Translations under genes and position numbers: made by a program
Shown here: piece by piece, positions 1,933-20,264 of the stretch
How positions within the stretch are numbered: the first letter of the stretch is position 1
Layout: each line of letters begins with the position of its first letter
The notes under the pieces: generated by a model
What the model was told of the DNA's origin: nothing
The model's input: only the letters and a program-made list of their open reading frames with translations
The model's database searches: none
Assembly: GCF_000144695.1 (NCBI RefSeq)
Contig: NC_014378.1
Location: forward strand, 248,001-312,000
Direction: 5' to 3'
DNA: 64,000 nt
Source: Acetohalobium arabaticum DSM 5501
Lineage (GTDB): Bacteria; Bacillota; Halanaerobiia; Halobacteroidales; Acetohalobiaceae

Positions 1933-1936
1933 ATAA

Positions 1937-2281
1937 ATGAAATTAATCAATCGATCTAAAGATATAGAGATAATAGGAAAGTTATCTAAAGCAACAACAT
2001 TCTGGCAGCGGCTGGTGGGATTGTTAGGCAAGGAAGATATTTCATTGGATGAAGGGTTATTAATTACTCCCTGTAAGATAGTTCATACCTTCTTTATGGA
2101 GTTTTCGCTGGATCTTATCTTTTTAGATGATGATAACCGGGTGGTTAAGCTGGTTACTTGCTTACAGCCTAATCGGATTTCTCCTGTTGTATTTTCAGCT
2201 GTAAAGGTGATTGAATTAAAAGCCCGGACAGATTTAGAGACATTAGTAGAGGAAGGTGATCGATTAATTATATTGGATTGA
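1937..2281 (+). CDS. DUF192 family protein
   Basis: Small 114-residue protein of the DUF192 family. The core of the family is visible: a GLLITPCKIVHTFFM stretch at about residues 40-54 followed by an acidic beta segment (LIFLDDDNRVVKL). DUF192 genes often sit beside Tad/pilus genes in Clostridia, as here, 4 bp after the TadC-like gene. No signal peptide is visible, unlike many DUF192 proteins of Gram-negative bacteria. Biochemical role is not established. Confidence 0.75.
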   Translation: MKLINRSKDIEIIGKLSKATTFWQRLVGLLGKEDISLDEGLLITPCKIVHTFFMEFSLDLIFLDDDNRVVKLVTCLQPNRISPVVFSAVKVIELKARTDLETLVEEGDRLIILD

Positions 2282-2283
2282 GG

Positions 2284-2312
2284 TTGTATAAGCCAGTAAA
2301 AAACTGTATAAT
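2284..2312 (+). promoter_or_regulatory. sigma-A-type promoter for the DUF362 gene
   Basis: TTGTAT at 2284-2289 and TATAAT at 2307-2312 with a 17-bp spacer. The next start codon is at 2373, preceded by AAGGAA. Sequence match only. Confidence 0.6.
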
Positions 2313-2372
2313 TAATAATGGAAGATACAATTTACGCATATAATGTAAACAGCAGAAAGGAAGTCCCCAATT

Positions 2373-3530
2373 ATGGTTTCGGTAGCATCAATTAGCTGTG
2401 ATAGGTATCAGGAAGAGGTAGTACAGGAGGCTGTTCGGAAGGCTGTAGCTGAATTAGGCGGGCTGGATAGCTTTGTTTCTCCGGAGGATCGGGTTCTGAT
2501 TAAGCCTAATCTATTGGGGCCTAAGCCTCCGGAAGAGGCGGTTACTACACATCCTTTAGTGTTGAAAGCAGTAATTGAGCTGGTCCAGAACACAGGAGCT
2601 AAACCGGTAGTGGGTGAAAGTTCAGGCGGTTTTCTGGTAGAGGAATCGCTTACAGCTAGGGCTTTTAAAGAGACCGGGACTGAAGAGGTCTGTAAGCAGT
2701 TAGGAGTGGAGATGATTAACTTTGACCGGGTAGCAGCTACAGAAATTATTAATCCCGGCAGTACTGTTGACAGCTTTAAATTACCATTGGCAGTTCTGGA
2801 AGCTGACTTTATTATTTCGCTGCCTAAGCTGAAGACACACGGTTTGACTTTATTTACTGGAGCTGTTAAAAATTTCTACGGTGTAATTCCTGGTTTAGAG
2901 AAGATGGAGTACCACCGCCGCTTTCCTAATGTTAACCGGTTTATGGAAGTGATTGTGGATATCTTTGAGTTAGTGACAGCTGACTTTGCTATTATGGATG
3001 GAGTTGTAGGTCTGGCAGGTGATGGGCCTGGAAGCAGTGGGATTCCCTGTACTGTAGGGAGTATATTGGCCAGTGCTGATCCGGTTGCTTTAGATACAGT
3101 AGCTGCCGGTTATCTAGGCTATAGTGACAGCCAGATAAGATATTTAAATTTGGCTGCCCAGCGCGGTTTAGGTAGAGCTGATCTGGATAGAATTGAAATC
3201 AAGGGTAATTTTAGTCAGTCGGAGTATAAAAAGTATGATCTACCGTCGAATGCTGTTCTGTCCCATCTACCGAATTTTATTCTGCGTCCTCTATTCCAGG
3301 GGCTGATGTCGAAGCCGGTGATTGACCAGCAGAGCTGTACCCAATGTAGAACCTGTCTGGATAGCTGCCCCCAGCAGGTGATTATTGAACAGCAGGATGG
3401 AAATAATACCTATTTGGAGATTGATGAAAGTGAATGCAGCAAGTGTCTTTGTTGTCAGGAAGTTTGTCCGTTTGATGCTATCGAGTTAAAGGAGAATTTC
3501 TTGTTTAAGCTTCTTCGTTATTTCAAGTAG
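2373..3530 (+). CDS. DUF362 domain protein with C-terminal 2x[4Fe-4S] ferredoxin
   Basis: 385-residue cytoplasmic iron-sulfur protein. Residues about 1-290 are the DUF362 domain, with the characteristic stretches VLIKPNLLGPKPPEEAVTTH near 47-66 and LPKLKTHGL near 150. The C-terminus has two ferredoxin motifs, CTQCRTCLDSCP (about 322-333) and CSKCLCCQEVCP (about 354-365), so it should bind two [4Fe-4S] clusters. Proteins of this architecture are common in strict anaerobes; the reaction is not known. It has its own sigma-A-like promoter and ends in TAG. Confidence 0.85.
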   Translation: MVSVASISCDRYQEEVVQEAVRKAVAELGGLDSFVSPEDRVLIKPNLLGPKPPEEAVTTHPLVLKAVIELVQNTGAKPVVGESSGGFLVEESLTARAFKETGTEEVCKQLGVEMINFDRVAATEIINPGSTVDSFKLPLAVLEADFIISLPKLKTHGLTLFTGAVKNFYGVIPGLEKMEYHRRFPNVNRFMEVIVDIFELVTADFAIMDGVVGLAGDGPGSSGIPCTVGSILASADPVALDTVAAGYLGYSDSQIRYLNLAAQRGLGRADLDRIEIKGNFSQSEYKKYDLPSNAVLSHLPNFILRPLFQGLMSKPVIDQQSCTQCRTCLDSCPQQVIIEQQDGNNTYLEIDESECSKCLCCQEVCPFDAIELKENFLFKLLRYFK

Positions 3531-3549
3531 ATCTGAAAGAGATTAGACT

Positions 3550-3578
3550 TTGACTACCTATAATGATTATGGTATAAT
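3550..3578 (+). promoter_or_regulatory. sigma-A-type promoter for sigH
   Basis: TTGACT (3550-3555), 17-bp spacer, TATAAT (3573-3578). This is close to ideal vegetative consensus and lies about 20-40 bp upstream of the sigma-H start. Confidence 0.75.
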
Positions 3579-3619
3579 TGTAGGGAGTAAAAAAATGTAT
3601 GAGGGTGGGGGATAAATCA

Positions 3620-4288
3620 ATGGGTGAGCCTGAGCAAAAGTTCAAGAGTAAATATGATGAAATGCCTGAACAAGAAGTGATTGATTTAGCCCAGAATGGG
3701 GACAAGCTAGCAGAGGAATATCTGCTTGATAATAATATTGATATAGTATATGCTAAATCCAAGTTATTTTATATTAAAGGATTGGACAAAGATGATGTAA
3801 TTCAGGAAGGTTTAGTTGGACTCTATAAAGCAATTCGGGATTATAAAGAGCAGCGGGCAGCATCATTTAGGGGTTTCGCTCATTTATGTGTTAGTCGGCA
3901 GTTGATTTCGGCTATTAAGACTGCTAACCGCCAGAAACATATGCCGTTAAATACTTCCACTTCAATTGACAAGAAGCTGAAGTATTCTAAGGATGACGGC
4001 GGACGAGGCCGTACCTTGCTTGATGTATTACCCGATGATAATAATGATCCCCAGGCTGACTTGGTTAATCGTGAGTTAGTTGATGAAGTTACATACGAAT
4101 TGCGGGATATGTTGACTGAACTGGAATGGAATGTCTTCAGTAGTTACCTGCAGGCTAAATCATATAAAGAGATTGCCCAAGAGATTGACGGTAGTGTCAA
4201 GACAGTAGATAACGCCCTCCAGAGAGCCAGAAGAAAAATCGATGAATTAAAACAGAATCTAGAAGATGAAGTAGTTAATCATGCTTAA
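3620..4288 (+). CDS. sigH: RNA polymerase sigma-H factor (sigma-70 family)
   Basis: Sigma-70 family factor that redirects RNA polymerase to stationary-phase, sporulation or competence promoters in Firmicutes. Region 2 is clear (LDKDDVIQEGLVGLYKAIRD, then FRGFAHLCVSRQLISAIKTA), followed by the SigH signature QKHMPLNTSTSID. A C-terminal region 4 helix-turn-helix includes SYKEIAQEIDGSVKTVDNAL. The frame is open from an ATG at 3599, but the GAGGTGGGGG-like ribosome site just before ATG 3620 favours the shorter 222-residue form. A strong promoter precedes it and a terminator follows. Sigma-H drives early competence or sporulation genes in relatives; comFA and comFC lie next, which may be coincidence. 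Confidence 0.88.
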   Translation: MGEPEQKFKSKYDEMPEQEVIDLAQNGDKLAEEYLLDNNIDIVYAKSKLFYIKGLDKDDVIQEGLVGLYKAIRDYKEQRAASFRGFAHLCVSRQLISAIKTANRQKHMPLNTSTSIDKKLKYSKDDGGRGRTLLDVLPDDNNDPQADLVNRELVDEVTYELRDMLTELEWNVFSSYLQAKSYKEIAQEIDGSVKTVDNALQRARRKIDELKQNLEDEVVNHA

Positions 4289-4384: not shown

Positions 4385-4423
4385 TTATTCTTCGGCCTGT
4401 TGTCTCTTCAAGATATTGCAGAT

Positions 4424-4551
4424 ATAGTCAACAAATCTCCTACGCTTGTCATTCGTTCAACGTCCTGTCTCACTCATTTTCAAAAAAGAACTTTCCGCCG
4501 TCCATGGCTCCAAGTTCTTTTTAAGAGTCGCTTCGGAGAAATGTTGACTAT
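4424..4551 (-). repeat. 128-bp palindromic repeat, copy 1 (reverse orientation)
   Basis: Exactly 128 bp, bounded by ATAGTCAACAAATCTCC and the inverted GGAGAAATGTTGACTAT. The inner hairpin stem is AGAACTT/AAGTTCT around a CCATGG-containing loop. It forms an inverted pair with copy 2, separated by 60 bp. It sits between the sigH terminator and comFA. Confidence 0.85.
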
Positions 4552-4611
4552 GTTATCTATTTTTAAATATTTGCTTTGAAATTACATTGATTTTATATGT
4601 TAAATAATTTC

Positions 4612-4739
4612 ATAGTCAATATGTGTCTGTAGCGACTCTTAAAACTGGTCCGGAACCATGGACGGTGGAGGGCCAGTTTTTGAAAGCGAATGAGGCAGGA
4701 GGCCGAATGAGCGGCAAGCGGAAGATACATATTGACTAT
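4612..4739 (+). repeat. 128-bp palindromic repeat, copy 2
   Basis: Bounded by ATAGTCAATATGTGTCTG and GATACATATTGACTAT. The inner stem is ACTGGTCC/GGGCCAGT (one G-T wobble) around the conserved loop GGAACCATGGACGGTGGA. The repeat is open in the comFA frame, so naive gene calling extends comFA upstream through it from a TTG/GTG-type codon at 4623. Confidence 0.85.
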
Positions 4740-4799
4740 GCACTGCAGTTACAATTTAAGCCAACGACAGGCCGAAGAATTACATTCGAGGTGAAGAGA

Positions 4800-6686
4800 A
4801 TGAAGAAAGCAGGCTGTGTAATCTATCTTTTATTCGTAAAGGATGAGAAGTTCAGTATCAATCTAGCTTTTGATCCCAAATTTGAGTTAAGCTATTTTTT
4901 ACAGACTAGGGAATGGTCGCCAGGAAATGTAAAAGCATATAGATTAACTGAGCTGTTGCCGGTTGGGTTGGCTAATTATATTTACCGTAAGTTAGGTAGT
5001 TGTTCGGGACAGCAAGAGCTGCAAGAGATAAAGCAGGATGGAAATCTTTTCGATAGTCTAAAGGAGAAGCTGGGTTTAAAGAAGCCGGGGATTGAGGGAG
5101 TAGTAGCTAATTATAGTCAGCAGGTGGAGAATATTCTGGCCTATTATGGTTTAGCAGATTATAGTCAGGTAAGTAAAGTGGAGTTGGATTATCATTTTGA
5201 TTTTCCTGCGCCAGATGAGTTGGCCAGGGTTCAGGAAGCTTTAAATGGTCGGCTGCTCTTTTATAAGGAGATAAAGCAGGCTTTGGGCGAGAACAGGGTT
5301 AAGTTGACGGCTTCGCTGTCTATTCTGTTACAGACTTTGAAGCTGGAGTCTAAACTGGAAGTTAAGTCCGGAATAGCCTACCGCAGTCGGAATGATTTGG
5401 TCTGCCGCCGCTGTGGCCAGAGTGGAAATCTAGTGGAGATAGACTGTAATTACTGTGGATTAACGGATTACTACTGTGCTAACTGTCTGCAGATGGGAAG
5501 GTCAAGGATCTGCCGTCCGTTGTATGCTTTTCAACTAGCGGAGAAGAGGAGCAGCTCAATTACTTTAAGCAGGCGGCAGGAACAGAGAGTAGATCCTAAA
5601 CTGGAGTTTGAACTAACGGCTGCTCAGCGTGATGCTGGACAGGAATTGATTCAGTTTATCTCCAGCCGGCAGGCGGAGGCACTGGTCTGGGCTGTCTGTG
5701 GGGCCGGCAAGACTGAAGTTTCCTTTCAAGCTATTGCTGAGGTATTGACAGAAGGCGGTCAGGTTCTGTTTGCTATTCCGCGTAAGGATGCCGTAATTGA
5801 GCTGGCTCCTAGACTGGAAGAGAGTTTTCCGGATTTTGAGATCAGTCTGCTCCACGGCAGTTCGGAGAATAAGTATCGAGCAGCCCGGATAACAGTGGCT
5901 ACTACCCATCAGGTTTTGCGGTTTGAGGATAAATTCGATTTGGTAGTGCTGGATGAGATGGATGCCTTTCCCTATCAGGGCAGTGAAATGCTTAAGTATG
6001 CTGTCTACCGCTCCTGCCGCCCGGAGGGAAAGATTATATTTATGACAGCAACGCCAGGGGATGAATTAATGGCCTTTAGAGATCATAAGGATAAATTACT
6101 GGTCAAGATTCCGGCTCGCTACCACGGTCATCCTGTTCCTGAACCTGAGCTGTTGACTGCTGAGCTGGATTATAAGCAGGAAGCCCAACAGGTGGAGCTG
6201 CCCGAAAAAGTGATGAAGCTGATCTACCGCTCGGTTAAGAAGGATCAGGCCCAGCTGTTTGTCTTTCTGCCGACAAGGGAACTGGTAGAGCTGGCTGGCA
6301 GAGAGCTACAACAGAGGCTGCCTGAGGAGAATAATCATCCCTGGGTGGAATACAGCCATGCTCAGGATGAGGCCCGGGATAGAAAGCGGGACGGCTTCTG
6401 TGATGGGGAGTATCCTATTCTGGTCTCTACAACTATCATGGAACGGGCCATCACTGTTCCTAAGGCCAATGTATTGGTCTTATTTGCTGACTGGAAGTCT
6501 GTCTTTACTGTATCAGCGTTGATCCAGATGGGCGGTAGGTCTGGTCGGTCGCTGGAGCATCCTGAGGGTAATGTCTGGTTTGTGGGCCAGAGGGTTACTG
6601 CGGAAATGAGACAGGCTAAAAGCAGGATTAAGAGTCTGAATCAGGAAGCTCAACAAAAGGGCTACATAACAGAGCAAGATTACTAG
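4800..6686 (+). CDS. comFA: ComFA-like DEAD-box helicase, late competence
   Basis: ATP-dependent helicase/translocase thought to pull single-stranded DNA through the competence channel. From ATG 4800 (628 residues) it shows a multi-cysteine zinc finger (CRRCGQ...CNYCG...CANC, about 201-235), Walker A VCGAGKTE (about 298-305), a DExD-type box LDEMD (about 382-386), TATP motif III (about 414) and a motif VI-like QMGGRSGRS (about 575). ATG 4800 is chosen because GAGGTG lies 6 nt upstream; the frame stays open upstream only because it runs through a 128-bp repeat. comFC follows 13 bp after the TAG stop, the normal operon order. Confidence 0.85.
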   Translation: MKKAGCVIYLLFVKDEKFSINLAFDPKFELSYFLQTREWSPGNVKAYRLTELLPVGLANYIYRKLGSCSGQQELQEIKQDGNLFDSLKEKLGLKKPGIEGVVANYSQQVENILAYYGLADYSQVSKVELDYHFDFPAPDELARVQEALNGRLLFYKEIKQALGENRVKLTASLSILLQTLKLESKLEVKSGIAYRSRNDLVCRRCGQSGNLVEIDCNYCGLTDYYCANCLQMGRSRICRPLYAFQLAEKRSSSITLSRRQEQRVDPKLEFELTAAQRDAGQELIQFISSRQAEALVWAVCGAGKTEVSFQAIAEVLTEGGQVLFAIPRKDAVIELAPRLEESFPDFEISLLHGSSENKYRAARITVATTHQVLRFEDKFDLVVLDEMDAFPYQGSEMLKYAVYRSCRPEGKIIFMTATPGDELMAFRDHKDKLLVKIPARYHGHPVPEPELLTAELDYKQEAQQVELPEKVMKLIYRSVKKDQAQLFVFLPTRELVELAGRELQQRLPEENNHPWVEYSHAQDEARDRKRDGFCDGEYPILVSTTIMERAITVPKANVLVLFADWKSVFTVSALIQMGGRSGRSLEHPEGNVWFVGQRVTAEMRQAKSRIKSLNQEAQQKGYITEQDY

Positions 6687-7495: not shown

Positions 7496-7571
7496 TAATT
7501 AGCGATAAATTGATATATTGTGCCACTTTCCATTTACAGCTAATATGATTTCATTTATGATATTGCAGATT

Positions 7572-7699
7572 ATAGTCAACAAATCTCTTACGCTTGCCGT
7601 TCGCTCAACATCCTGTTTCGCTCACTCTCAAAAAACAGTTTTCCGCCCTCCATGGCTCCAAACTGTTTTTAAGAGTCGCTTCAGAGAAATGTTGACTAT
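7572..7699 (-). repeat. 128-bp palindromic repeat, copy 3 (reverse orientation)
   Basis: Bounded by ATAGTCAACAAATCTCT and AGAGAAATGTTGACTAT; inner stem ACAGTTT/AAACTGT. Lies inside the MITE at 7508-7952 and is paired with copy 4, 26 bp away. Confidence 0.85.
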
Positions 7700-7725
7700 T
7701 TGTAGTTCAATATATTCTATTATCA

Positions 7726-7853
7726 ATAGTCAATATGTTTCCAGAGCGACTCTTAAAACTGACCCGGAACCATGGACGGTGGAGGGTCAGTTTTTGAGAA
7801 CGAATGAGGCAGGACGCCGAATGAGTGGCAAGCGGCGGATACATATTGACTAT
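7726..7853 (+). repeat. 128-bp palindromic repeat, copy 4
   Basis: Bounded by ATAGTCAATATGTTTCC and GGATACATATTGACTAT; inner stem ACTGACCC/GGGTCAGT is perfect. Loop GGAACCATGGACGGTGGA is identical to copy 2. Confidence 0.85.
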
Positions 7854-8146
7854 CCCCCATAATATCATGAATGAGATTATATCGGTTATGCTAAACAACT
7901 ACAAATAATGAATGCATGTGAGAAGACTGCAGAGTGACACAATATATCAATTAAGATGCATTCTCAACTTTAATCTATCAAAATTTAGATTAAGTTGATG
8001 CGCAAGCTATGTTAATAATCAATATTTTCAGGAGTATATTGATCGAACTATTTGGACTTATCCTAGAATGCAGGAAAAATGTAGTTAATTGTTGAAATTA
8101 TAGAATATAAGTAAGCTAATTATCCTTATCTTAAGGGGGAGTTAGA

Positions 8147-8860: not shown

Positions 8861-9154
8861 ATGAAGATTTCTAATGAACAGTTAAGTCAGGTGCTTAAGA
8901 CTTATAATCAAAAGAAGGCTTCTAAGTCCAATTCGGAGGCTAAGAAGAGTAAAAATAAAGGGGATAAGCTGTTTATTTCCAGTGATGCTAAAGAGATGCA
9001 AGAGGCTAAAAAGGCTTTGGAAAGTCAGCCGGAGGTTCGTAGGGAGAAGGTTGAAAGATTAAAGAAGCAGATTAAGACGGGTAATTATAATGTATCGGGG
9101 GAAGAAGTAGCGGACAAGATGTTATCCCGGACTATTGTTGATAATCTAGTCTAG
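8861..9154 (+). CDS. flgM: Anti-sigma-28 factor FlgM
   Basis: 97-residue negative regulator that holds the flagellar sigma factor (sigma-28/SigD) inactive until the hook is built, then is exported. The N-terminal half is lysine/serine-rich and likely disordered. The C-terminal half has the conserved sigma-binding segment (RREKVERLKKQIKTGNY followed by a VSGEEVADKML helix, about 60-90). Position between yvyF and flgN matches the Bacillus order. It ends 19 bp before flgN. Confidence 0.88.
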   Translation: MKISNEQLSQVLKTYNQKKASKSNSEAKKSKNKGDKLFISSDAKEMQEAKKALESQPEVRREKVERLKKQIKTGNYNVSGEEVADKMLSRTIVDNLV

Positions 9155-9173
9155 TTAGGAAGTGAGATAGCCT

Positions 9174-9674
9174 ATGGTTACTAAATTAATAGAGATTCTG
9201 CAGGCGGAGTATCAGATCTATCAAGAGCTTTACCGGTTAAGTGAAGAAAAACAGGAGATCATTATTGATAATCGAGTTGAGGACCTGTTAGAGATAATTG
9301 AAGAGGAACAAAAAGAGGTACAGAAAATTGATCAACTGGAAGGTAAACGGATAGATATCTTAGAAAAGATTGCAGCAAAGAATTCACTTCAAGAAGGTGA
9401 GCTTTCGTTTGATAAGCTGATAGAGTTAATTAGTGAGCCCCAAAAAAGCCAGCTGCAGGAAATTAGAAGTGATATTCTGGAACTGTTAGAAGAACTTCAG
9501 GAAATAAATGAAATCAATGCTAACCTAATTAGAGAATCTTTACAATTAACTGATTATACATTGGAGTTGTTAACTAACAGTAATATCGGGAAGACTAATA
9601 CATATCAGAAACCGGGCGATAAGGGGCAGGATAGTAGTGATCAACAGCGGAGGATTATCGACCAGAAAGTGTAG
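9174..9674 (+). CDS. flgN: FlgN flagellar export chaperone
   Basis: 166-residue, highly charged, all-helical protein predicted to form a coiled coil, matching FlgN. FlgN binds the C-termini of the hook-filament junction proteins FlgK and FlgL and delivers them to the export gate. It lies between flgM and flgK, ending 11 bp before flgK. No sharp sequence signature is seen, so the call rests on size, helical heptads and context. Confidence 0.8.
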   Translation: MVTKLIEILQAEYQIYQELYRLSEEKQEIIIDNRVEDLLEIIEEEQKEVQKIDQLEGKRIDILEKIAAKNSLQEGELSFDKLIELISEPQKSQLQEIRSDILELLEELQEINEINANLIRESLQLTDYTLELLTNSNIGKTNTYQKPGDKGQDSSDQQRRIIDQKV

Positions 9675-9685
9675 GAGGGACAGCT

Positions 9686-12091
9686 ATGGGTTCTACTTTT
9701 AGCGGTATAGAACTAGGTAAACGTGCTCTACAGGTACAGAGAAAATCACTTGATGTAACAGGCCATAATATTTCAAATGCTAATACAGAAGGCTATAGCC
9801 GACAGGAAGCAATTCATGCAACCAATCGCCCCCATACTATTCAACACGGCACGGGAGCTGGACAAGTAGGGACCGGGGTTAAGATAGATGAGATCAAGCG
9901 GGTTAGAGATGAGTTTATTGATGGGCAGATTAGAGAAGAAACCAGTGCTCAGGGTAAGTGGGAAGTAAAGAATGATGCCTTAGAGCAGATAGAGTTAATC
10001 TTTAATGAACCGTCGGATAAGAGTCTGCGTAACTCAATGGATGAGTTCTGGAATTCGCTCCAGGAGTTGAATAATAATCCAGAGAGTGAAGCGGTACGGG
10101 CTACTGTACGGCAGAGGGCCCTGTCTTTGACGGATACATTTAATCATTTGGATGATCAGCTGCGGGATTATCGGACGTCGCTTAATAATCAGCTCAAGAC
10201 TAAAGTAAATGATATAAATTCTTACGGCCAGCGGATTGCAGACTTGAATGCCCAGATCAGCAGAATTGAGAGTATGGACCAGAATCCGAATGATCTGCGG
10301 GATAAACGGGACTTACTGGTTGAGAAGCTATCCAAGATTACCAGCGTACAGACTAATGAAATGGATAATGGGGCGGTGACAGTCAATATTGAAGGCCAGT
10401 CGTTAGTCTGGCAGGATGAGGTAAGTAAACTAAAGACAGTAGAGACTGCAAGTTCTGATTCTAAATTCGATAAGACAGTGGAAGTTAGATGGGATAAGAC
10501 CAATGAAGAAGTTAACTTTACTAATGGAGAGATGCAGGGGTTACTGGAAGCCAGAGATGAAGAAGTTCCTAAGTATGTAGAGCAGTTGGATAATATGGCT
10601 CAAGAGTTAGCTGCTACCTTTAATGATCAGCATCATCAGGGTTATGGTTTGAGTGATACGGAGATGACTGAGCTGGAGTCGAATGTTCAGGCTACTCCTA
10701 GTGATCCATTAGATGGAGCTACAGGTAAATTTAATGTAGTAGTTAATGGCAGTGTTGAGGATTCTGTTACAGTTAATAGCGGTGATGGTCTTAACACTAT
10801 TGCTAATAAGATAGATGGTGTGGCTAAGGTAGATTCTTTTACTGTAGATAACAATGGAGATGGTGCAGCTGATACTTTGAAGGTTCATAGTTCTCTTTCG
10901 GGGACTGCAATAGACTTAGTGAATACAAGTGATACTGAAGCTGGCGCAGTTAATGTTGTGCAAAAGCTAGGTCTGAAGGGGACAGGAGCTGGACGGGATT
11001 TTTTTACTGGTAAAACTTCGGAGGTTGCTTCTGGAAGTACTGCTGGCAAAGCAGATATAGTATTTGTAGTAGATAATACCAGTAGTATGGATAGTATCCA
11101 AGAGGAAGTTAAAGATAATTTATCAAACTTTATCGATACCATAAAGAGTAAAGGCGTTAATGATATTCAAATGGGAGTAATTGAGTATAGAGATTCTAAT
11201 ATAATTCCTAAAGATTTTTCTGGCAGTAATTGGACATCGGATCCGGATAAGGTCAAGGCTACCCTTGCTAATTTGGACTCTTCAAGTGGTGGATCAGAGG
11301 AATATGCTATGCAGGCGGTTAAGGATACTATTAATAATTATGATTTTCGGTCCAATGAAGCTGGGCTTCAGGTTAAAAATGCAGTTTTGGTTACAAATGA
11401 AGATGCTGATGATGAAGGTCAGCTTAGTTCAACAATAGATAATGCTAATATAGAAGGATTACAAGTACATGGAGTTTATCATGAAGGTACTGATATATAT
11501 GGGGAAGATACTTCAGAATTTGATAATCTTACAAGCAGTACTGGAGGAGAAAGTGTTGATTTATCCGATTCTTCCTGGGGTTCAAAGCTTGCTAATGTAG
11601 TAGGAGGAGCAATAGGTTCAGCAGCAAGTAGTAGCGAAGATAATGGCGAGATTACAGCTAAGAATATAGATTTGGCTAAGGCTATTAAATCTGAAGGCGG
11701 TTTAGCCAAGATAGCAGCAGCTACTAAGGCTTCCGATAATGCCGATAGTAATGGAGTTAATGATTATGCTGGCGACGGTGGAAATGCTTTAGCTTTATCA
11801 CAGGTAGATAATAAGAAGGTATTTAGTTCTGGAACGGCTGATTTTGGTGATTATTATGAGTCCAATATCTCCAAATTAGGAGTAGACAGCCAGCGGGCAG
11901 GAAGAATGGTTAAGAATCAGGAAGTGTTAACTAAGAATTTAAAACAGCAGCGTGATTCGATCTCTGGTGTTTCGCTGGATGAGGAGATGTCGAAGATGAT
12001 TAAGTACCAGCAGTCCTATACTGCGGCAGCTAAGTTTACTTCTACGATGGATGAGATATTGAATACATTAGTGAATGGGATAAAGAGGTAG
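9686..12091 (+). CDS. flgK: Flagellar hook-associated protein FlgK with an inserted von Willebrand A domain
   Basis: First junction protein between hook and filament. The N-terminus is a standard FlgK (GIELGKRALQVQRKSLDVTG, then HNISNANTEGYSRQ), and the C-terminus closes with the usual D0 helices (SLDEEMSKMIKYQQSYTAAA, ending in MDEILNTLVNG). At 801 residues it is 200-300 longer than ordinary FlgK. Residues about 455-640 form a von Willebrand A domain: ADIVFVVDNTSSM supplies a metal-site motif D463-x-T465-x-S467, followed by GVIEYRDSN and a GGSEEYAMQAV segment. The domain replaces the surface-exposed variable part. It follows flgN with GGAGGGA before ATG and ends in TAG. Confidence 0.9.
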   Translation: MGSTFSGIELGKRALQVQRKSLDVTGHNISNANTEGYSRQEAIHATNRPHTIQHGTGAGQVGTGVKIDEIKRVRDEFIDGQIREETSAQGKWEVKNDALEQIELIFNEPSDKSLRNSMDEFWNSLQELNNNPESEAVRATVRQRALSLTDTFNHLDDQLRDYRTSLNNQLKTKVNDINSYGQRIADLNAQISRIESMDQNPNDLRDKRDLLVEKLSKITSVQTNEMDNGAVTVNIEGQSLVWQDEVSKLKTVETASSDSKFDKTVEVRWDKTNEEVNFTNGEMQGLLEARDEEVPKYVEQLDNMAQELAATFNDQHHQGYGLSDTEMTELESNVQATPSDPLDGATGKFNVVVNGSVEDSVTVNSGDGLNTIANKIDGVAKVDSFTVDNNGDGAADTLKVHSSLSGTAIDLVNTSDTEAGAVNVVQKLGLKGTGAGRDFFTGKTSEVASGSTAGKADIVFVVDNTSSMDSIQEEVKDNLSNFIDTIKSKGVNDIQMGVIEYRDSNIIPKDFSGSNWTSDPDKVKATLANLDSSSGGSEEYAMQAVKDTINNYDFRSNEAGLQVKNAVLVTNEDADDEGQLSSTIDNANIEGLQVHGVYHEGTDIYGEDTSEFDNLTSSTGGESVDLSDSSWGSKLANVVGGAIGSAASSSEDNGEITAKNIDLAKAIKSEGGLAKIAAATKASDNADSNGVNDYAGDGGNALALSQVDNKKVFSSGTADFGDYYESNISKLGVDSQRAGRMVKNQEVLTKNLKQQRDSISGVSLDEEMSKMIKYQQSYTAAAKFTSTMDEILNTLVNGIKR

Positions 12092-12183
12092 TGTTTAGTG
12101 TCAGGAACTAGTGTCGGGAATCAGTAAAAAGATAACTGACACAGACAACTACCACAGATAACTGAAAATGGAGGTGAAGATAA

Positions 12184-13050
12184 GTGCGGGTAACGAATGG
12201 AATGATGGTTAATAATTTATTAGGTAATCTTAGTGATAGTAAAGAAAGACTTGATGAATATAATCGGCAATTATCTACTGGTAAGAAGTTTGATATGCCA
12301 TCTCAGAACCCAACTGGTACAGTGCGAAGTATGGATTTAGAATCTACTATCAGTAGTAATAAACAGTATACTCGAAATATAAATCAGTCATTGACCTGGA
12401 TTAAGTCTACCGAAGGTACTTTAAGTCATGCTAATGATATATTACACCGAACAAGGGAATTAGCCGTTAAAGGGGCTAATGGTTCATTAAATGAAACTGA
12501 TAGACAGTCGATTGCTGATGAAGTAAAAGAACTTAAAGCTAATATGAAAGGAGTAGCCAATACCTCTTATAACGGTAAGTATATTTTTGCCGGTCATAAA
12601 GTAAATATTAAGCCTTATTCTGATAATAGTTCTAAGTACCAAGGTGATGATGGTAAAATTATTCGAGAAATTAGTCAAGGAACAGAAGTGAAGATCAATC
12701 AGAGTGGTGATTTTTTTGAACCTATCTTGGATCGAATGGAGAAGTTAATTGATAATTTAGAAACAGGAAATATAGATGGAATTTCTAATAATATATCTGA
12801 TTTAGATGAAAGTCTAGATGAAGTTATAAAAAAGAGGTCGGAAGTAGGTGCTAAGCAGAATCGGTTGGAATTAACTAAGAATCGCTTAGAAGACGATAAA
12901 ATTAAGTTCAAAGAGTTGTTATCACAGAATGAAGATGTCGATATTGCAAAGACGATTATGAATCTAAAGATGAGTGAGAATGTACATCGAGCGGCTTTAT
13001 CTTCAGGGGCAAGGATAATTCAACCTAGTTTAACGGATTTTCTAAGGTAA
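12184..13050 (+). CDS. flgL: Flagellar hook-filament junction protein FlgL
   Basis: Second junction protein, 288 residues, joining FlgK to the filament. The N-terminal flagellin-like helix is clear (MMVNNLLGNLSDSKERLDEY, then QLSTGKKF), and the C-terminus pairs with it (KQNRLELTKNRLEDDK...NVHRAALSSGARIIQPSL). Start is GTG 12184 preceded by GGAGGTGA. Length is normal, unlike FlgK. In the flgK-flgL-fliW-csrA order. Confidence 0.92.
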   Translation: MRVTNGMMVNNLLGNLSDSKERLDEYNRQLSTGKKFDMPSQNPTGTVRSMDLESTISSNKQYTRNINQSLTWIKSTEGTLSHANDILHRTRELAVKGANGSLNETDRQSIADEVKELKANMKGVANTSYNGKYIFAGHKVNIKPYSDNSSKYQGDDGKIIREISQGTEVKINQSGDFFEPILDRMEKLIDNLETGNIDGISNNISDLDESLDEVIKKRSEVGAKQNRLELTKNRLEDDKIKFKELLSQNEDVDIAKTIMNLKMSENVHRAALSSGARIIQPSLTDFLR

Positions 13051-13057
13051 GGGGCGG

Positions 13058-13624
13058 ATGAGGATGAAGTTAAGGTTAGAGATTAATCAGAGGCTGGCTA
13101 AGATTGGTCTGCGGACAACTCCGCCTCAAACAAGTGTTAAACAGAAGCCGGCTGAAGTTAAGCAGAAAACAGTGAATGGAGAGTTGAAGATTGAGTCTAA
13201 GCCTGTTAAAGTAAAAATTGATCAGAAGAAAGCACGGGCTGCTTTGAATTATAAACATTACAAGATTTATGGTAAGGATATAGCTAAACGAGGGAAGCAG
13301 ACAGCTTTAAAAGCTATAGCTGAATACTCTAGTCAAGGAGATCAATTAGCAAGGATTGAAAAGAAAGGTAAGCCTTTAATTGCTCAGGCTAAAAAGAATG
13401 CCTATGGTGATAAAAAGAAAGTAGGATTGAAATGGAAGCCGGGACCTGAAATCAGTGTTACTCCTGGGCAACAGGATATTAATTTTGAAGTCAAGGATTT
13501 AAATGGGATTAAATTAGATACAGAACCTAACTGGCCGCAGATTGATTTACAGTGGGGGAAGGTTGAAGCATATCAAAAGCAGAAAGCTGAATTAGAGATT
13601 AAAGCTGTTGATAAAAAAGTGTAA
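13058..13624 (+). CDS. DUF6470 family protein (YviE-like) in the flgL-fliW interval
   Basis: 188-residue lysine-rich protein starting LRLEINQRLAKIGLRTT, the pattern of the YviE/DUF6470 proteins that lie between flgL and fliW in Bacillus and Clostridia. No membrane segment or signal peptide is visible. Function unknown; the conserved position implies a flagellar role. Two ATGs two codons apart (13058 and 13064) are both possible starts. It ends 15 bp before fliW. Confidence 0.75.
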   Translation: MRMKLRLEINQRLAKIGLRTTPPQTSVKQKPAEVKQKTVNGELKIESKPVKVKIDQKKARAALNYKHYKIYGKDIAKRGKQTALKAIAEYSSQGDQLARIEKKGKPLIAQAKKNAYGDKKKVGLKWKPGPEISVTPGQQDINFEVKDLNGIKLDTEPNWPQIDLQWGKVEAYQKQKAELEIKAVDKKV

Positions 13625-13639
13625 TTAAGGAGGAGCAGA

Positions 13640-14074
13640 ATGGAATTAGAAACGACTCGATTTGGTAAGTTAGAAGTAGATGAAGAAGAGATAATTACTT
13701 TTGAAGATGGGTTGTACGGTTTTGAAGATAATAAACGGTTTACATTAGTAGCTGATGAAGAGCCCTTTTTCTGGCTGCAGTCAATGACTGATCCGGATTT
13801 AGCTTTTGTAATAGTAGAGCCTGGAGTTTTTTGTCAGGATTATGAATTCAGTTTGAATGATAAAGTAAAAGATGAGTTACAGCTTGAATCGAAAGCAGAA
13901 GTATTAGTAATGAATATTGTAGTTGTTCCTGAGAATCCTAAAGAGATGACAATGAATCTTAAAGCGCCGATTATAATTAATGAAAAGAAAAGAATTGCTA
14001 AACAGATTATTCTCGAGGAAGAAGAATATCCAGTAAAGTATCGATTATTTGAAGAAGAAAGTATTTCAGCTTAA
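13640..14074 (+). CDS. fliW: Flagellar assembly factor FliW
   Basis: 144-residue regulator that binds either flagellin or CsrA. When flagellin is exported, freed FliW sequesters CsrA and relieves repression of flagellin translation. The family start ([25 protein letters not shown]...) and the VIVEPGVF and [10 protein letters not shown] segments are visible. It is 15 bp upstream of csrA, and flagellin follows, the usual three-gene control unit. Preceded by AAGGAGGAG. Confidence 0.92.
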
Positions 14075-14088
14075 TAGGGAGGAAGAGG

Positions 14089-14334
14089 ATGTTAGTCTTA
14101 ACTAGAAAGAAAGAGGAAAGTATTATTATTGATGATCAGATAGAAATTAAAATAGTAGATATTGATGGAAATAGAGTTAAGTTAGGGATTGATGCTCCCC
14201 AAAAGATAGATATTCATCGCAAAGAAATTTATGAAGAAATAGTAACTGAGAATAAACAGGCTTCAGATATTAAGGCAAGCAATCTAGCCAGTATAATAAA
14301 AGAAGCTGCAAATCAAAGTAAAAAGGGGGAATGA
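14089..14334 (+). CDS. csrA: Carbon storage regulator CsrA
   Basis: 81-residue RNA-binding dimer that blocks ribosome binding at GGA motifs. The family start [20 protein letters not shown] and the basic RNA-binding beta strand followed by [10 protein letters not shown] are intact. The tail (about residues 62-81) is somewhat longer than in E. coli CsrA, as is common in Firmicutes. It directly follows fliW; its likely main target is the flagellin leader about 260 bp downstream. Confidence 0.93.
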
Positions 14335-14590
14335 AGTAATAAAATAGAGTTATTCTACTTTAAAAATAGGTAGTGATGATTAAAGTACTATAACTAAAAT
14401 TAAATTATTTACTAAATTATCGATAATTATTAGTGAAGAGTAATGATTAGTGAGCAATTAGTAGTTAGTAAGGACTGGTGCTTTAAAGTTAAATTTAAAG
14501 TAGCAGTGGTTACTAACTTTCATTAGCTATCACTAGATTAGCCTACTAGGATTAGTTGATGATTAGTAGCCAAAACCACTTCCTATCAGC
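14335..14590 (+). promoter_or_regulatory. csrA-flagellin intergenic region with candidate sigma-28 promoter and long imperfect hairpin
   Basis: TAAA at 14401-14404, a 14-bp gap, then ATCGATAA at 14419-14426 resembles the sigma-28 pattern TAAA-N15-GCCGATAA. Further on, GTTAGTAAGGACTGGTGC pairs with GCAGTGGTTACTAAC-type sequence (about 14464-14519) around TTTAAA arms, giving a long imperfect hairpin in the leader. No gene is seen here. Confidence 0.45.
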
Positions 14591-14627
14591 AAGGAGGCTG
14601 AAGGAAGTAAAACTATTATCAAGGAGG
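14591..14627 (+). promoter_or_regulatory. CsrA-type GGA sites in the flagellin leader
   Basis: Three AAGGA motifs: AAGGAGG 14591-14597, AAGGAAG 14601-14607 and AAGGAGG 14621-14627. The last is the ribosome site, 9 nt before the flagellin ATG. This matches the known Bacillus hag arrangement in which CsrA occupies an upstream site and the ribosome site together. Confidence 0.6.
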
Positions 14628-14636
14628 AAGATAAAA

Positions 14637-16073
14637 ATGAGAATTAATACTAATGTGACGGCTTTGAATGCTTATAACCAATTAAAATCTACTAATGAAA
14701 ACATGAGTAAATCTTTAGAAAGATTATCTTCTGGGAAGAGAATCAATAGTGCTGCTGATGATGCTGCTGGCTTGGCTATCAGTGAAAAGATGAAGGGGCA
14801 GATGAATGGTCTGGCTCAGGCACAGCGAAATGCTCAGGACAGCATCTCTATGATTCAGACTGCTGAAGGTGCTTTACAGGAAACTCATAGTATTTTGCAG
14901 CGGATGCGTGAACTTTCTGTTCAGGCCGGTAATGATACTAACACGGCTGATGACCGGGCAGAGATTCAGGAAGAGATCGATCAGTTGAAGGATGAAATTG
15001 ATAATATTGGTGAAACTACTGAGTTTAACACCAAGAAGTTGTTAAATGGTGGAGCTGGATTGGAAACGACTACAAATACTGAAACTGTTGATGGAACAGA
15101 TAAAGAGTGGGCTAGTGTACAAGGTGGGTCTGCAGATACGGAAACTGGAACTATTGATATTACTTCTGCTACTGCTGCTAGTGCTGGAAGTTATGACCTT
15201 ACTGTAAGTACTGGTGAAGGTACTAATGAGTCAATTACTGTTAATGGGAATACAGTTAATTATGATGCTTCTGCTTCTAGTGCCACAGTATCTGCAAATA
15301 ATTTGCAAACTGTGCTTAATGACAACGCTGATAAGTTAGGTATTGAAGAAGTTGAAGATGCTGATGTTACTAGTAGTGGAACTATGACAATTGAGAATGC
15401 AGCTATTGGTTCAGCGAATGAACTTGATATTTCTGCTGGTTCTACTGCTGTAGCAACTAGTACTGCTATTGATGTAAGTAATGAAGGCACGGATATTGAT
15501 ATTACGGCTGGTACTAATGGTGGTAATGCTACTGCAATAGCTGATACAGACTATGTTTCTAGTGGGAATTCAATTGAAGTTACTGGAGGTAAATTTGAAG
15601 GATTAAAATTAGAGTTTGATGGAGAAGAGATGAGTACTACTGCAGGTACTAATAAATTTAATGTTGAAATTGAATCCAATGGTGTAGTACAATCACAGAT
15701 TGGTGCTAATGATGGACAGAATATGAGTATTTCTATTAATGATATGAGATCAGAGGCATTAGGAGTCAGTAATCTTGATGTAACAAGTGCTGAGAATGCT
15801 AATGAGGCTATATCAACATTGGATGATGCTATTCAGAAGGTATCCAGTGAGCGTTCTAAGCTCGGTGCTAAGCAGAATCGATTAGAACATATTACAAATA
15901 ATCTCAGTGCTGCCGAAGAAAACTTAACTGCAGCTAATTCTCGAATTCGTGATGTAGATATGGCCAGCGAGATGATGCAGATGAGTAAGACGAGAATTCT
16001 TTCTCAGGCTGGTACTGCTATGTTAGCTCAGGCTAATCAGAAATCACAGGGAGTAATGCAGTTACTTGGATAA
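14637..16073 (+). CDS. hag: Flagellin (filament protein), normal size class
   Basis: Major filament subunit of 478 residues. The N-terminal D0/D1 region is canonical (MRINTNVTALNAYNQLKST, SLERLSSGKRINSAADDAAG) and the C-terminal region closes it (KQNRLEHITNNLSAAEENLT, ending SQGVMQLLG). Residues about 140-395 are a Thr/Ser/Ala/Asn-rich, acidic variable domain, likely surface exposed and glycosylated given the downstream genes. The frame is open from ATG 14556, but ATG 14637 is the real start: it has AAGGAGG 9 nt upstream and gives the conserved flagellin N-terminus. Confidence 0.95.
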   Translation: MRINTNVTALNAYNQLKSTNENMSKSLERLSSGKRINSAADDAAGLAISEKMKGQMNGLAQAQRNAQDSISMIQTAEGALQETHSILQRMRELSVQAGNDTNTADDRAEIQEEIDQLKDEIDNIGETTEFNTKKLLNGGAGLETTTNTETVDGTDKEWASVQGGSADTETGTIDITSATAASAGSYDLTVSTGEGTNESITVNGNTVNYDASASSATVSANNLQTVLNDNADKLGIEEVEDADVTSSGTMTIENAAIGSANELDISAGSTAVATSTAIDVSNEGTDIDITAGTNGGNATAIADTDYVSSGNSIEVTGGKFEGLKLEFDGEEMSTTAGTNKFNVEIESNGVVQSQIGANDGQNMSISINDMRSEALGVSNLDVTSAENANEAISTLDDAIQKVSSERSKLGAKQNRLEHITNNLSAAEENLTAANSRIRDVDMASEMMQMSKTRILSQAGTAMLAQANQKSQGVMQLLG

Positions 16074-16131
16074 TTAGTAATCAGTTTTAAAGATAAATTT
16101 AGAAATAAGGTAAGAAACTATTAGTGAAGTC

Positions 16132-16166
16132 AAAGCCGGCCGGTTTTTCCGGCTGGCTTTAATAAT
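16132..16166 (+). terminator. terminator after flagellin
   Basis: AAAGCCGGCCGG pairs with CCGGCTGGCTTT around TTTTT (one mismatch). The following T-run is weak (TTTAATAATT). It lies 60 bp after the stop codon. Confidence 0.7.
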
Positions 16167-16184
16167 TAATATGGAGGTGAAAGA

Positions 16185-17930
16185 ATGGCTGATTTGAGTT
16201 TGGATGGTTTGGCCAGTGGAATGCCGACTGAAAATACGATTAATCAGATATTAAATGCAGAGTATGGAACAAAGTTGCAGAATTTAAATCAGGAAAAGAG
16301 TAATTTGGAAACACAAAAGAATGCCTGGCGGGATGTTAATTCTAGAATAGATAAGTTAGAACAAAAGGTAACACAGTTAAAATTGTCTTCTACTTTTGCG
16401 TCTAACAAGACAACAAGTAGTGATGAAGAAGTAGTTACTGCTACTTCTACTACAGATGCTACTGAAGGCACTTATGATATAGAGGTAGTAAAGAAAGCTC
16501 TAGCTCATAGAATAGCTGGAACAGATCAGTCTGCTAAAATCGATAGTGCTACTTCTGCTAATAGTGAGGATATTTCTGAGATAGCTATGCAGAATGGGGG
16601 AGAATATACAGCAACCCAGTTTAGTTCAGGGGAAACAATTGATGGTACAACTTATGATTATGGTTTGAAAAATAGTGATGGAAATATTGTTGCTGTGAGT
16701 ACTAACCAACAAGTCTATACTTCCTTAGATAAGGCAACTGCCGAAGGGGATTTGGGCAGTTTAACTTCTTCAAATTTAGGTGAGAGTTATGATTTTGGTT
16801 CTGCGATAGCTAATAATACAGTGGTAAGGATGGATGGGACTGGGGCTAATGAAAAGAATAATTTAGCAACTGCAATTATGATGAATGATGATACAGTAAC
16901 TATTAATGGTACTGATATTAGTGTGTCTGCGACTGATACTCTTGAAGATTTTGTGATTGCAGTTAATGATAGCGATGCTGGTGTTAACGCTAGTACTGTA
17001 TCTAATCGGTTAATACTAGAAAGTAATGAAACGGGAACAGATAATGAAATTACTTTATCTGATAATGGGAATAGTAATGGACAGCATTTATTGGAAGACT
17101 TAGGTCTTATCGACGGTAGTGATAATATTATTACTAGTAATGATGGTTATCAAGCGGCACAAAATGCTGAAGTAACTGTTAATGGGATTACTGGCATTAC
17201 AAGTCAGGATAATACTATTGATGAAGCAGTAAGTAATGTTACTTTTGAAATTAGTGATGCTGCTCAACCTTCACAAGAGACAGAAACAGCTACTGTTACT
17301 GTCAGTCAAGATACTGAGAAAGCTACTTCTAAAATTCAGGCTTTTGTTGACCAATATAATAGTGTGCAGGATTTTATGAATAAAAAGCTTGATTATAATT
17401 CAGAGACTGAGGAAAGCGGTGCATTACAAGGGGATGGAACCTTAATGCGTCTACAGTCTAGGTTACGGCAGTTAGTAATGGAACAAGTAGATAGCGGTAA
17501 TGAATATAATAGTTTGATGTCAGTTGGAATTAGTAGTAAGAAAAATGGAACACTTGAATTTGATTCAGGCAAATTCGAAACTGCTTTGAAAGAAAAGCCG
17601 GAGCAGGTGAAAAATCTCTTTACTAGTGAAGAAGATGATGGTTCTTTTGATGGGGTAGCTACTAAATTAGATAGCTATTTAGATATGGTGATCCAAACTA
17701 ATATAGGAGTAATTCCTGGGAAAATAGATTCTTATGAAAGAATGATGGAGGATGTGGAGCAAAGTATTGCATCTACAAATGATCGATTGGAGCAGGAGAG
17801 AGAAAGATTAACTCAGGAGTTTACATCTATGGAGCAATCTATTTCAGAAATGAATAATCAGATGAGTTGGATGCAGAGTCAACTGGGCAGCATGGGCGGA
17901 ACAAGTAATATGTTAAGTTCTATGATGTAA
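16185..17930 (+). CDS. fliD: Flagellar filament cap protein FliD
   Basis: 581-residue cap protein that sits at the filament tip and folds incoming flagellin. The family N-terminus is present (DLSLDGLASGMPTENTINQI), followed by coiled-coil segments, a Thr/Ser-rich exposed middle, and a C-terminal FliD domain (NLFTSEEDDGSFDGVATKLD and the terminal coiled coil ending MSWMQSQLGSM). Start ATG 16185 follows GGAGGTGA. Length is only modestly larger than usual. It is followed 30 bp later by the glycosyltransferase block. Confidence 0.92.
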   Translation: MADLSLDGLASGMPTENTINQILNAEYGTKLQNLNQEKSNLETQKNAWRDVNSRIDKLEQKVTQLKLSSTFASNKTTSSDEEVVTATSTTDATEGTYDIEVVKKALAHRIAGTDQSAKIDSATSANSEDISEIAMQNGGEYTATQFSSGETIDGTTYDYGLKNSDGNIVAVSTNQQVYTSLDKATAEGDLGSLTSSNLGESYDFGSAIANNTVVRMDGTGANEKNNLATAIMMNDDTVTINGTDISVSATDTLEDFVIAVNDSDAGVNASTVSNRLILESNETGTDNEITLSDNGNSNGQHLLEDLGLIDGSDNIITSNDGYQAAQNAEVTVNGITGITSQDNTIDEAVSNVTFEISDAAQPSQETETATVTVSQDTEKATSKIQAFVDQYNSVQDFMNKKLDYNSETEESGALQGDGTLMRLQSRLRQLVMEQVDSGNEYNSLMSVGISSKKNGTLEFDSGKFETALKEKPEQVKNLFTSEEDDGSFDGVATKLDSYLDMVIQTNIGVIPGKIDSYERMMEDVEQSIASTNDRLEQERERLTQEFTSMEQSISEMNNQMSWMQSQLGSMGGTSNMLSSMM

Positions 17931-17960: not shown

Positions 17961-20264
17961 ATGAAGTTAAGTATAGGAATGATGGTTAAAAATGAAGCAA
18001 AGTATCTTGAAGAATGCTTAAAGAGTTTACAGCCAATTAGAGAAGCGATAGAATCTGAATTAGTTATAGTAGATACTGGATCTGACGATGGGACAGTAGA
18101 AATAGCCAAACAGTTTACTGATAAAGTTTATTTTCATGAATGGAATGATCATTTTTCGGAAATGAGGAATACAGTTATAAGTTATACTAAGGGGGATTGG
18201 TACTTTTCTATTGATGGAGATGAAGTAGTTGAGAATCCAGAGGGATTCATTCATTTCTTTCAATCTGGTAAATATAAAGAATTTAATTCAGCTCTAGTTA
18301 CTCAGAAAAATTATATTAACAAAGAAAAGACTAACGTTTCAAATTTATTAGTACCACGAGTTTTCAAAAATGATGAAGATTTTCATTTTGAAGGAGCAAT
18401 TCATAATCAACCTGTAGTAAAGAAACCAGTATGTACATTGGATACCGTTTTAGAACATTATGGTTATTTACAAAATGATCAAGAATTAATGGAAAGAAAA
18501 TTTAATAGAACTAGTAATATATTAAAAAGAGAGTTAGAAAATGATCCGGAAAATATTTATTATAGATTCCAATTAGCAAATAGTTATGGGATGCATGGGG
18601 ATTATGATAAAGCTATAGAGAATATTGAAAAGACTTATGAGGTAGTAAATCAAAAGAAAACTGATTTAAGCTCTTATTTATATATACATAATCTGATGGC
18701 TAAAATGTATCTTGGTCAGAATAGGTTAAGTGAGGCAGAAAAGATATGTAAGGAAGCTATTGGCCTTGCAAAAGGTTATTATTCTGATTTATATTATTAT
18801 CTTGGTAAAGCTCAATTAAAATTAAATAAAAATGAAGAAGCAATAGAAAATTTTAAAATTTATCTGGATATAGTTGAAAAAGATGGGCCTTTAGAACAAA
18901 TAAATGATACATCTTTTATTTTTTATACAGAGGATAATTTAGAGCAGGCATATCTATTTTTATTAGTCTTATATGAAAGAATAGAAGACTACGAACAGAT
19001 TATTAATGTTAGTTATAAGATAAAGAGTAAAGATAATATAAAACAAGTTATTCCTAAGGCTATAAAAGCGTGTGTTGAAACAGATAGATTTAATGAAATA
19101 AAAAATTATTATCAGAATAAAATATTGACTGAATTTAAAGATTTATCTGGTAAATATCTAGCTGAATTAGAGTCTAAAATGATGACTATGAATAAAGAGA
19201 AAAAGTATAATATTTTTAATGTTTTTTCAGTAGAAAAAAGTAGTTATGGAATCCTTAATAAAGTAAGGCTGCGGGAACTAAAAGATAATAAATTAGTTAA
19301 TCTGATAACAAAAATGAATTTTAATTCTTTACCTAACTATTATGGTGATATAATTTATTATTTGTTACAGAACAAATATTTTTTAGTAGATGTCTGTGGA
19401 GTTATACAAGAACAAAGATTAAATAAATTTTTGCAGTATGTACTGGATGATAATAAAGAAGAAAATATAAGTTCTGTTCTTTATGAATACTTAGAAAATA
19501 GATTTAATGTTGAAACTTTAAGTCATCTTAATATCAATAAAGTACTAGAACGATATATATTAGTGTTAGATGATCTCAATAATGAGAAGTATTTTAATAT
19601 TTTTCGAAGGTACATTGAGGATGGTACTAAATATATAAAAATGGTATATAGTGATGAAATAATTCAGAATGAAATGACTCAGTTTGTTAAAAATGATGAG
19701 GAAGTTTTCTTATTATATATTTATCTTGCTAATCAACATAAAGAAAATAATCCCAAAAAATATGTTCGATATTTACGAAAAAGTTTAGATGCTTTTCCAG
19801 CGATGAAAAAAGGTATTCAAATGTTGTTAGAAAGATTTGAGAAAAAAGATACTTTAAATGGTGGATTAGAGAACTATCAAGAAAAGATTAAAAATAATAT
19901 AGATAAATTAATTAATAATGGTAATTTAAAAAAAGCAGAAGAATTAATTAATGAGTATGAAGATACTATAGAAGATGATGCTGAAATTTATTCAATGAAG
20001 TCTGTTATTGCAATTATGAAAAATAATTTTAAAAAAGCTAAAAAAATTATAAAGAATGGACTAGAAATTGAGCCTGATAATTTTGATTTGCTTTATAATT
20101 TGGGATATGTATATGAAGAGTTGAATCAATATAATCAAGCTAAGGATTATTATTTACAAGCAAAAAATTCTATTAATTCTTCAAAGCAAAAGGATGATTT
20201 AGCTCAAGCATTGAAGCGAATAGAAGAAAAAACAAAAGAGGTGGAAGAAAAGTATGGACTATAA
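17961..20264 (+). CDS. Glycosyltransferase family 2 fused to TPR repeats
   Basis: 767-residue protein, probably adding sugar to flagellin. Residues about 1-220 are a GT-A fold: LSIGMMVKNEAKYLEECL, VIVDTGSDDGT and the metal-binding FSIDGDE (DxD-type). The rest contains TPR-like helices (for example NIYYRFQLANSYGMHGDYDKA and DNFDLLYNLGYVYEELNQY) with a less clear helical middle. The gene is strikingly A+T rich (AAA, AAT and TTA codons dominate) compared with flanking flagellar genes, which suggests acquisition by transfer. It overlaps the next gene by 11 bp. Confidence 0.85.
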   Translation: MKLSIGMMVKNEAKYLEECLKSLQPIREAIESELVIVDTGSDDGTVEIAKQFTDKVYFHEWNDHFSEMRNTVISYTKGDWYFSIDGDEVVENPEGFIHFFQSGKYKEFNSALVTQKNYINKEKTNVSNLLVPRVFKNDEDFHFEGAIHNQPVVKKPVCTLDTVLEHYGYLQNDQELMERKFNRTSNILKRELENDPENIYYRFQLANSYGMHGDYDKAIENIEKTYEVVNQKKTDLSSYLYIHNLMAKMYLGQNRLSEAEKICKEAIGLAKGYYSDLYYYLGKAQLKLNKNEEAIENFKIYLDIVEKDGPLEQINDTSFIFYTEDNLEQAYLFLLVLYERIEDYEQIINVSYKIKSKDNIKQVIPKAIKACVETDRFNEIKNYYQNKILTEFKDLSGKYLAELESKMMTMNKEKKYNIFNVFSVEKSSYGILNKVRLRELKDNKLVNLITKMNFNSLPNYYGDIIYYLLQNKYFLVDVCGVIQEQRLNKFLQYVLDDNKEENISSVLYEYLENRFNVETLSHLNINKVLERYILVLDDLNNEKYFNIFRRYIEDGTKYIKMVYSDEIIQNEMTQFVKNDEEVFLLYIYLANQHKENNPKKYVRYLRKSLDAFPAMKKGIQMLLERFEKKDTLNGGLENYQEKIKNNIDKLINNGNLKKAEELINEYEDTIEDDAEIYSMKSVIAIMKNNFKKAKKIIKNGLEIEPDNFDLLYNLGYVYEELNQYNQAKDYYLQAKNSINSSKQKDDLAQALKRIEEKTKEVEEKYGL

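Follow-up and report, generated by a model that had tools for sequence, protein, structure and literature searches.

Insertion of functional domains into axial proteins of the flagellum has been described for flagellins. In a survey of flagellin architectures, vWFA was the eighth most frequent domain in hypervariable regions, with 21 cases (Table 1 of the 2017 flagellinolysin paper, PMC5595980), and for a protease the functional insertion of a domain into flagellin was experimentally established (PMC5595980). The main text of that survey does not mention FlgK. At the hook-filament junction, 11 copies of FlgK are present in Salmonella and Campylobacter, and in Salmonella this layer of 11 FlgK molecules is about 190 angstroms wide, with the D2 domains exposed (PMC12221982). 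No report of a von Willebrand A (VWA) domain in FlgK was found in the mainly open-access literature searched. As the domain is already known in flagellins and no FlgK case was found, the new element of the locus analysed here is the host protein, FlgK.

The locus is the flgK gene of the halophile Acetohalobium arabaticum DSM 5501, located in a window of 64,000 nucleotides (contig NC_014378.1, positions 248,001 to 312,000; all coordinates below are those of the window). The reading that we prefer, at a probability of roughly 60%, is that a normal FlgK gained a VWA domain in an exposed loop, probably horizontally, which would give a ring of about 11 copies of a putative binding module.

The flgK gene and its ends

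The gene and its parts are as follows:

9686..12091, + strand: flgK, the sole FlgK gene of the genome; continuous ORF of 801 aa, above the cut-off of TIGR02492
9686..10657, + strand: N-terminal half of FlgK, residues 1-324 (D0 helix and D1 helical domain); Flg_bb_rod and FlgK_D1 matches
10658..10996, + strand: first insert (slot 1), residues 325-437, a small D2-like beta domain recognised by slot lengths and by model strands at 347-413
11018..11650, + strand: VWA domain with linkers (slot 2), residues 445-655, recognised by PF00092, the AlphaFold model, integrin I-domain matches and slot length
11651..12088, + strand: C-terminal half of FlgK, residues 656-801; Flg_bbr_C match, 70% identity to the congener over 657-801

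The 801 codons are read without interruption, and the whole protein scores 383.4 bits with the NCBIfam equivalog TIGR02492 (flgK_ends), for which the cut-off is 170.75. Pfam matches to the same 801-aa protein comprise FlgK_D1 (E=7.6e-67), Flg_bbr_C (E=1.7e-11) and the rod motif Flg_bb_rod; Flagellin_C stays below threshold (18.5 vs 23 bits). The possibility that the host is a VWA-bearing flagellin was ruled out, as its ends are those of FlgK and not Flagellin_N or Flagellin_C. Residues 12-321 and 422-551 of Salmonella FlgK align to residues 15-324 and 661-797 of the A. arabaticum protein, and the Salmonella D2 region stands opposite residues 325-660. In the model of the full-length protein, pLDDT is mostly 76-95 over residues 80-320. 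Judged from these alignments and profile matches, both ends are those of an unaltered, ordinary FlgK.

The genome is one finished contig of 2,469,596 bp, in which a single FlgK match was found. The gene lies among late flagellar genes (ORFs at 8861-17930), followed in order by flgL, fliW, csrA, fliC and fliD; the FlgL/flagellin-like and FliD domains were assigned by Pfam, whereas fliW and csrA were recognised by eye from sequence. Directly after fliD, at 17961-20264, there is an ORF with Glycosyltransferase-2 and TPR-like parts (read by eye), perhaps a flagellin glycosylation gene. Elsewhere in the window, two direct repeats, of 129 nt (87%) and 128 nt (90%), are present at 4423-4739 and 7571-7853. 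Through them the start of a ComFA-like helicase ORF (4623-6686), with its first codons and the sequence preceding these, recurs about 3.1 kb downstream, where a truncated ORF remains at 7518-7862; the arrangement looks like an old partial tandem duplication.

The inserted domain

Within the whole 801-aa protein, Pfam places a VWA match at residues 454-655, with VWA_4 above its cut-off. When the domain is excised, VWA (PF00092) is matched at E=5.2e-11 with 43.5 bits against a cut-off of 23.8, followed by VWA_4 (PF25106; 32.1 vs 27 bits) and VWA_2 (PF13519; 27.6 vs 27 bits). An AlphaFold model of the domain, built with 12 VWA sequences, reaches pLDDT 85.3 and pTM 0.84, and its strands and helices alternate in the classic VWA order. 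With Foldseek, this model matched the VWA fold at a probability of 1.00. The search gave 317 solved chains with E-values of 0.001 or lower, and its best matches include TFIIH subunits, integrin I domains, a matrix protein of mussel threads and SpaC, a pilus adhesin. The top VIA match is the Pactolus I-domain (2iue; Z 20.9, rmsd 2.1 over 176 residues), with many integrin domains (I and beta-I) at Z 19-20. In the full-length FlgK model the same region has pLDDT mostly below 50, because the alignment used for that model held no VWA homologues. The profile matches and the domain model together indicate that residues ~445-655 form a complete VWA domain.

The preliminary description, made by reading the sequence, had proposed a VWA domain inside otherwise normal FlgK ends, and this proposal is borne out by the Pfam match, TIGR02492 and the AlphaFold model. 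The domain search and the structure prediction that it called for gave the PF00092 match and the complete VWA fold reported above, so that its reservation that no such fold might be predicted falls away. The motifs lie where it had placed them (DNTSS at 463-467, YRDS at 501-504 and GGSEEY at 535-540).

The insertion site

Slot lengths were measured on an alignment of 13 FlgK proteins from the order, the congener included. Slot 2, which extends from 'DFF' (438-440) to 'AKNID' (658-662), comprises 218 residues in A. arabaticum and 5-13 residues in all 12 other proteins. The FlgK of the congener, 585 aa long, matches residues 1-444 and 657-801 with no gap between them, providing an empty site with which the gain is directly comparable. 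In the full-length model the VWA domain is flanked by short strands at 440-442 and 661-663; as the flanking residues form two short strands, the domain takes the place of the hairpin turn. Alignment and model thus place it in a hairpin loop of D1, the slot where FlgK proteins bear outer domains.

The exact empty site also bears on whether flgK was artificially joined to another gene during assembly, which the preliminary description had named as a possible explanation. Both VWA/FlgK junctions are in frame, the genome is finished to one contig in which VWA_4 is matched nowhere else, and the nearest VWA relative is likewise embedded in a flagellar protein. An assembly join was ruled out on the basis of the single contig, the single VWA copy, the in-frame junctions and the congener's empty site, and its probability is negligible. 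A target-site duplication was also sought at the junctions; only an 8-bp chance match was found, with no sign of a mobile element.

The neighbouring slot 1 varies as well. It comprises 120 residues in A. arabaticum, 117 in the congener, 302 in another member of the order and 11-15 in most relatives. The beta domain in the A. arabaticum slot, which the congener also has and most other members of the order lack, matched no Pfam family. The 302-residue slot belongs to a FlgK of 765 aa (L005; genome G012, 1501-3798) and contains two Flagellin_IN motifs, which indicates that FlgK and flagellin-type proteins have insert modules in common.

Relatives and distribution of the domain

The best VWA match outside A. 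arabaticum in a search of 299 genomes of the phylum has 46% identity and lies in a 477-aa flagellin of Heliophilum fasciatum DSM 11170 (L039:3560-4990), between Flagellin_N (1.9e-39) and Flagellin_C (7.6e-20). In 82 other genomes sampled from the class of Heliophilum, the VWA profile had no match. A metagenome bin of the Lachnospiraceae has a third flagellar VWA (32% identity), in a flagellin whose Pfam flagellin ends are present and whose C-terminal domain is cut by the end of the contig. In the tree, the A. arabaticum and Heliophilum domains are joined as sisters at 99/98, and the three flagellar domains are grouped at 83/87, a node that carries a long-branch warning. The nearest relatives found among non-flagellar proteins are mostly large multidomain proteins of Bacillota, apparently secreted or located at the surface. 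The preliminary description had assigned the domain to a subtype common in secreted adhesins; this assignment is loose, as the non-flagellar relatives have no tested function.

The profile search of a 398-genome sample of the phylum revealed, among the VWA matches inspected, no flagellar ends other than those of A. arabaticum and the Heliophilum flagellin. A search of 58 more genomes of the class gave no other VWA of the same family save one marginal match (E=2e-6) in a 280-aa frame outside FlgK, in a genome whose FlgK is of normal length. With this as the sole other match among 59 class genomes, the idea that the VWA is a halophile or family trait was ruled out; the survey of related halophiles for the same insertion, suggested in the preliminary description, found it unique to A. 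arabaticum among those sampled and no trait of the lineage. The plasmids searched contain only distant VWAs (28-30%), e.g., in TraN.

FlgK itself is present in 326 of the 398 phylum genomes, and among the matches listed, which are about half of the total, most are ~460-640 aa long and a few are longer. The domain does not account for these other long proteins: no VWA motif was seen by eye in nine further FlgKs, among them that of the Heliophilum genome and the longest of the matches listed, and their inserts lie elsewhere in the protein. The inserts of four FlgKs of ~746-841 aa (L055-L058; genomes G418, G511, G144 and G272) are long, could be assigned to no known kind and lie at another place, just before the last helices.

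The gain of a VWA domain in FlgK thus appears rare and phylogenetically isolated among the sampled genomes. Such a pattern is in keeping with an inferred horizontal transfer of the domain from a flagellar or secreted protein, and the finding of the closest relative in the flagellin of another bacterium suggests that such domains move between flagellar parts.

The restriction to one species would also fit a recently gained domain that is tolerated as a passenger in a permissive loop and has no selected function yet. The composition of the gene points the same way, as third-position GC is 0.21 in the VWA, lower than in the FlgK ends (0.41 and 0.38). However, slot 1 and the neighbouring flagellar genes are also low (0.24-0.26), which makes composition weak evidence of recent arrival. 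The identity of 46% to the flagellin domain, the TNE-x-ADDEG signature common to the two and the fully intact fold argue instead for a domain kept under constraint, and a passenger is considered quite improbable.

The metal site

VWA domains bind ligands, often in adhesion, through a metal ion, held in the metal-ion-dependent adhesion site (MIDAS). The three motif regions are located as follows:

11072..11086, + strand: MIDAS motif 1, D463-N-T-S-S467 (DxTxS); the Asp is invariant among 12 aligned VWAs and the motif aligns with DESNS of integrin alpha-2
11288..11305, + strand: MIDAS motif 2 region, GGSEEY, residues 535-540, vs GGGDxPE in relatives and GGDLTNT in integrin alpha-2
11387..11416, + strand: MIDAS motif 3 region, LVTNEDADDE, residues 568-577, with N571 at the position of the metal-site Asp

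The preliminary description had expected metal-dependent binding from the first motif. This motif is indeed complete and stands, in both the alignment and the AlphaFold model, where the first strand ends, which is its proper place; together with the fold, which resembles integrin I domains, it would be in accordance with a classical metal-dependent adhesin. The other two motifs do not support this expectation. In motif 2, the Thr is not recognisable; there is a serine nearby, and the alignment is gapped there. In motif 3, the Asp found in integrin alpha-2 (VVVTDGE) and in distant related VWAs (e.g., LVTDA) is replaced by N571. The Heliophilum flagellin domain has the same Asn (TNENADDEG) and an altered motif 2 too, and since both departures recur in the nearest relative, they look fixed and not like an accident of one sequence. 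With N571 and the altered motif 2, the canonical site is incomplete and classical MIDAS binding may be lost. The acidic residues that follow N571 might nonetheless contribute to metal binding. The site of the FlgK domain cannot be called a classical MIDAS, and the domain is unlikely to act as a classical MIDAS adhesin.

Proposed role

According to the preferred reading, an exposed D1 hairpin loop of FlgK gained a complete VWA domain, whose probable source is a horizontally transferred VWA gene of the flagellar or secreted kind, while the joining of hook and filament would be left to the unchanged FlgK ends. Copy number and exposure of FlgK are taken from other species: because 11 FlgK molecules form each junction in Salmonella and Campylobacter, about 11 VWA domains are expected to form a ring at the base of each filament, and by analogy there would be one to two such rings per cell. 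The suggestion of the preliminary description that a few VWA domains stand at the filament base is, by the same analogy, supported by the exposed position and by a number of about 11 per junction. The domains would most probably act as protein-, polysaccharide- or surface-binding modules in attachment, aggregation or adhesion to cells, sediment or the cell's own envelope; their metal site may be a modified or weak one. On FlgK, a domain would be displayed about 11 times, always at the same position beside the cell, as compared with thousands of copies on the filament. If it binds something, then adhesins or sensors can be positioned in low copy number at the flagellar base, and the FlgK loop is a natural display site.

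It is also conceivable that the domain is a structural module with no external ligand, in which the VWAs contact each other or neighbouring FlgK or FlgL, stiffen or shield the junction in brine, and replace a larger D2. The outer domains of FlgK vary widely in size and kind, as seen from the range of slot 1 (11 to 302 residues), the Flagellin_IN repeats and the other large inserts in FlgKs of 746-841 aa, which makes the outer region of FlgK look like a general-purpose slot; the degenerate metal site and the Pactolus I-domain as best VIA match are also in line with a structural module. However, the VWA is not generally required, as it is missing from the congener and from most other relatives of the same order, and the related VWA sits in a flagellin, which is another packing environment. 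A purely structural role is considered unlikely.

A further-reaching, rather speculative proposal builds on the binding ring of the preferred reading. It assumes that flagellar VWA cassettes with the TNE-x-ADDEG signature move between flagellin and FlgK slots, and that the junction may thereby become a ring-shaped binding or contact-sensing device with a modified, non-classical metal site.

Comparison with known systems

The solved FlgK structures of Salmonella (2d4y/9go6), Campylobacter (5xbj/9gsx) and Burkholderia (4ut1) have outer domains between the same FlgK ends, as is the case in A. arabaticum; these domains fall into the central part of the family model, which is built for the ends only. 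However, no VWA was matched in these chains, whereas the outer part of the A. arabaticum protein comprises the small beta domain and the VWA. Integrin I domains resemble the FlgK domain in fold (Z about 19-21) and in the DxTxS/DxSxS motif 1, and so does the VWA of the SpaC pilus adhesin (Foldseek probability 1.00). In contrast to motif 1, the metal-site motifs 2 and 3 of integrin I domains and SpaC are not conserved in the FlgK domain, and identity is 11-20%. In flagellinolysin, a metallopeptidase in flagellin (PMC5595980, PMC7643111), a foreign functional domain is also held in an exposed loop, displayed on the flagellum and scattered in its distribution; both the domain and the host protein are different, and no enzyme activity is expected of the FlgK VWA. 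The closest counterparts are the vWFA flagellins (PMC5595980), in which a domain of the same class sits in the middle, exposed part of an axial protein of the flagellum. Their host is the filament subunit, present in thousands of copies, whereas the A. arabaticum domain is borne by a protein of the junction, of which a flagellum is expected to have about 11 copies.
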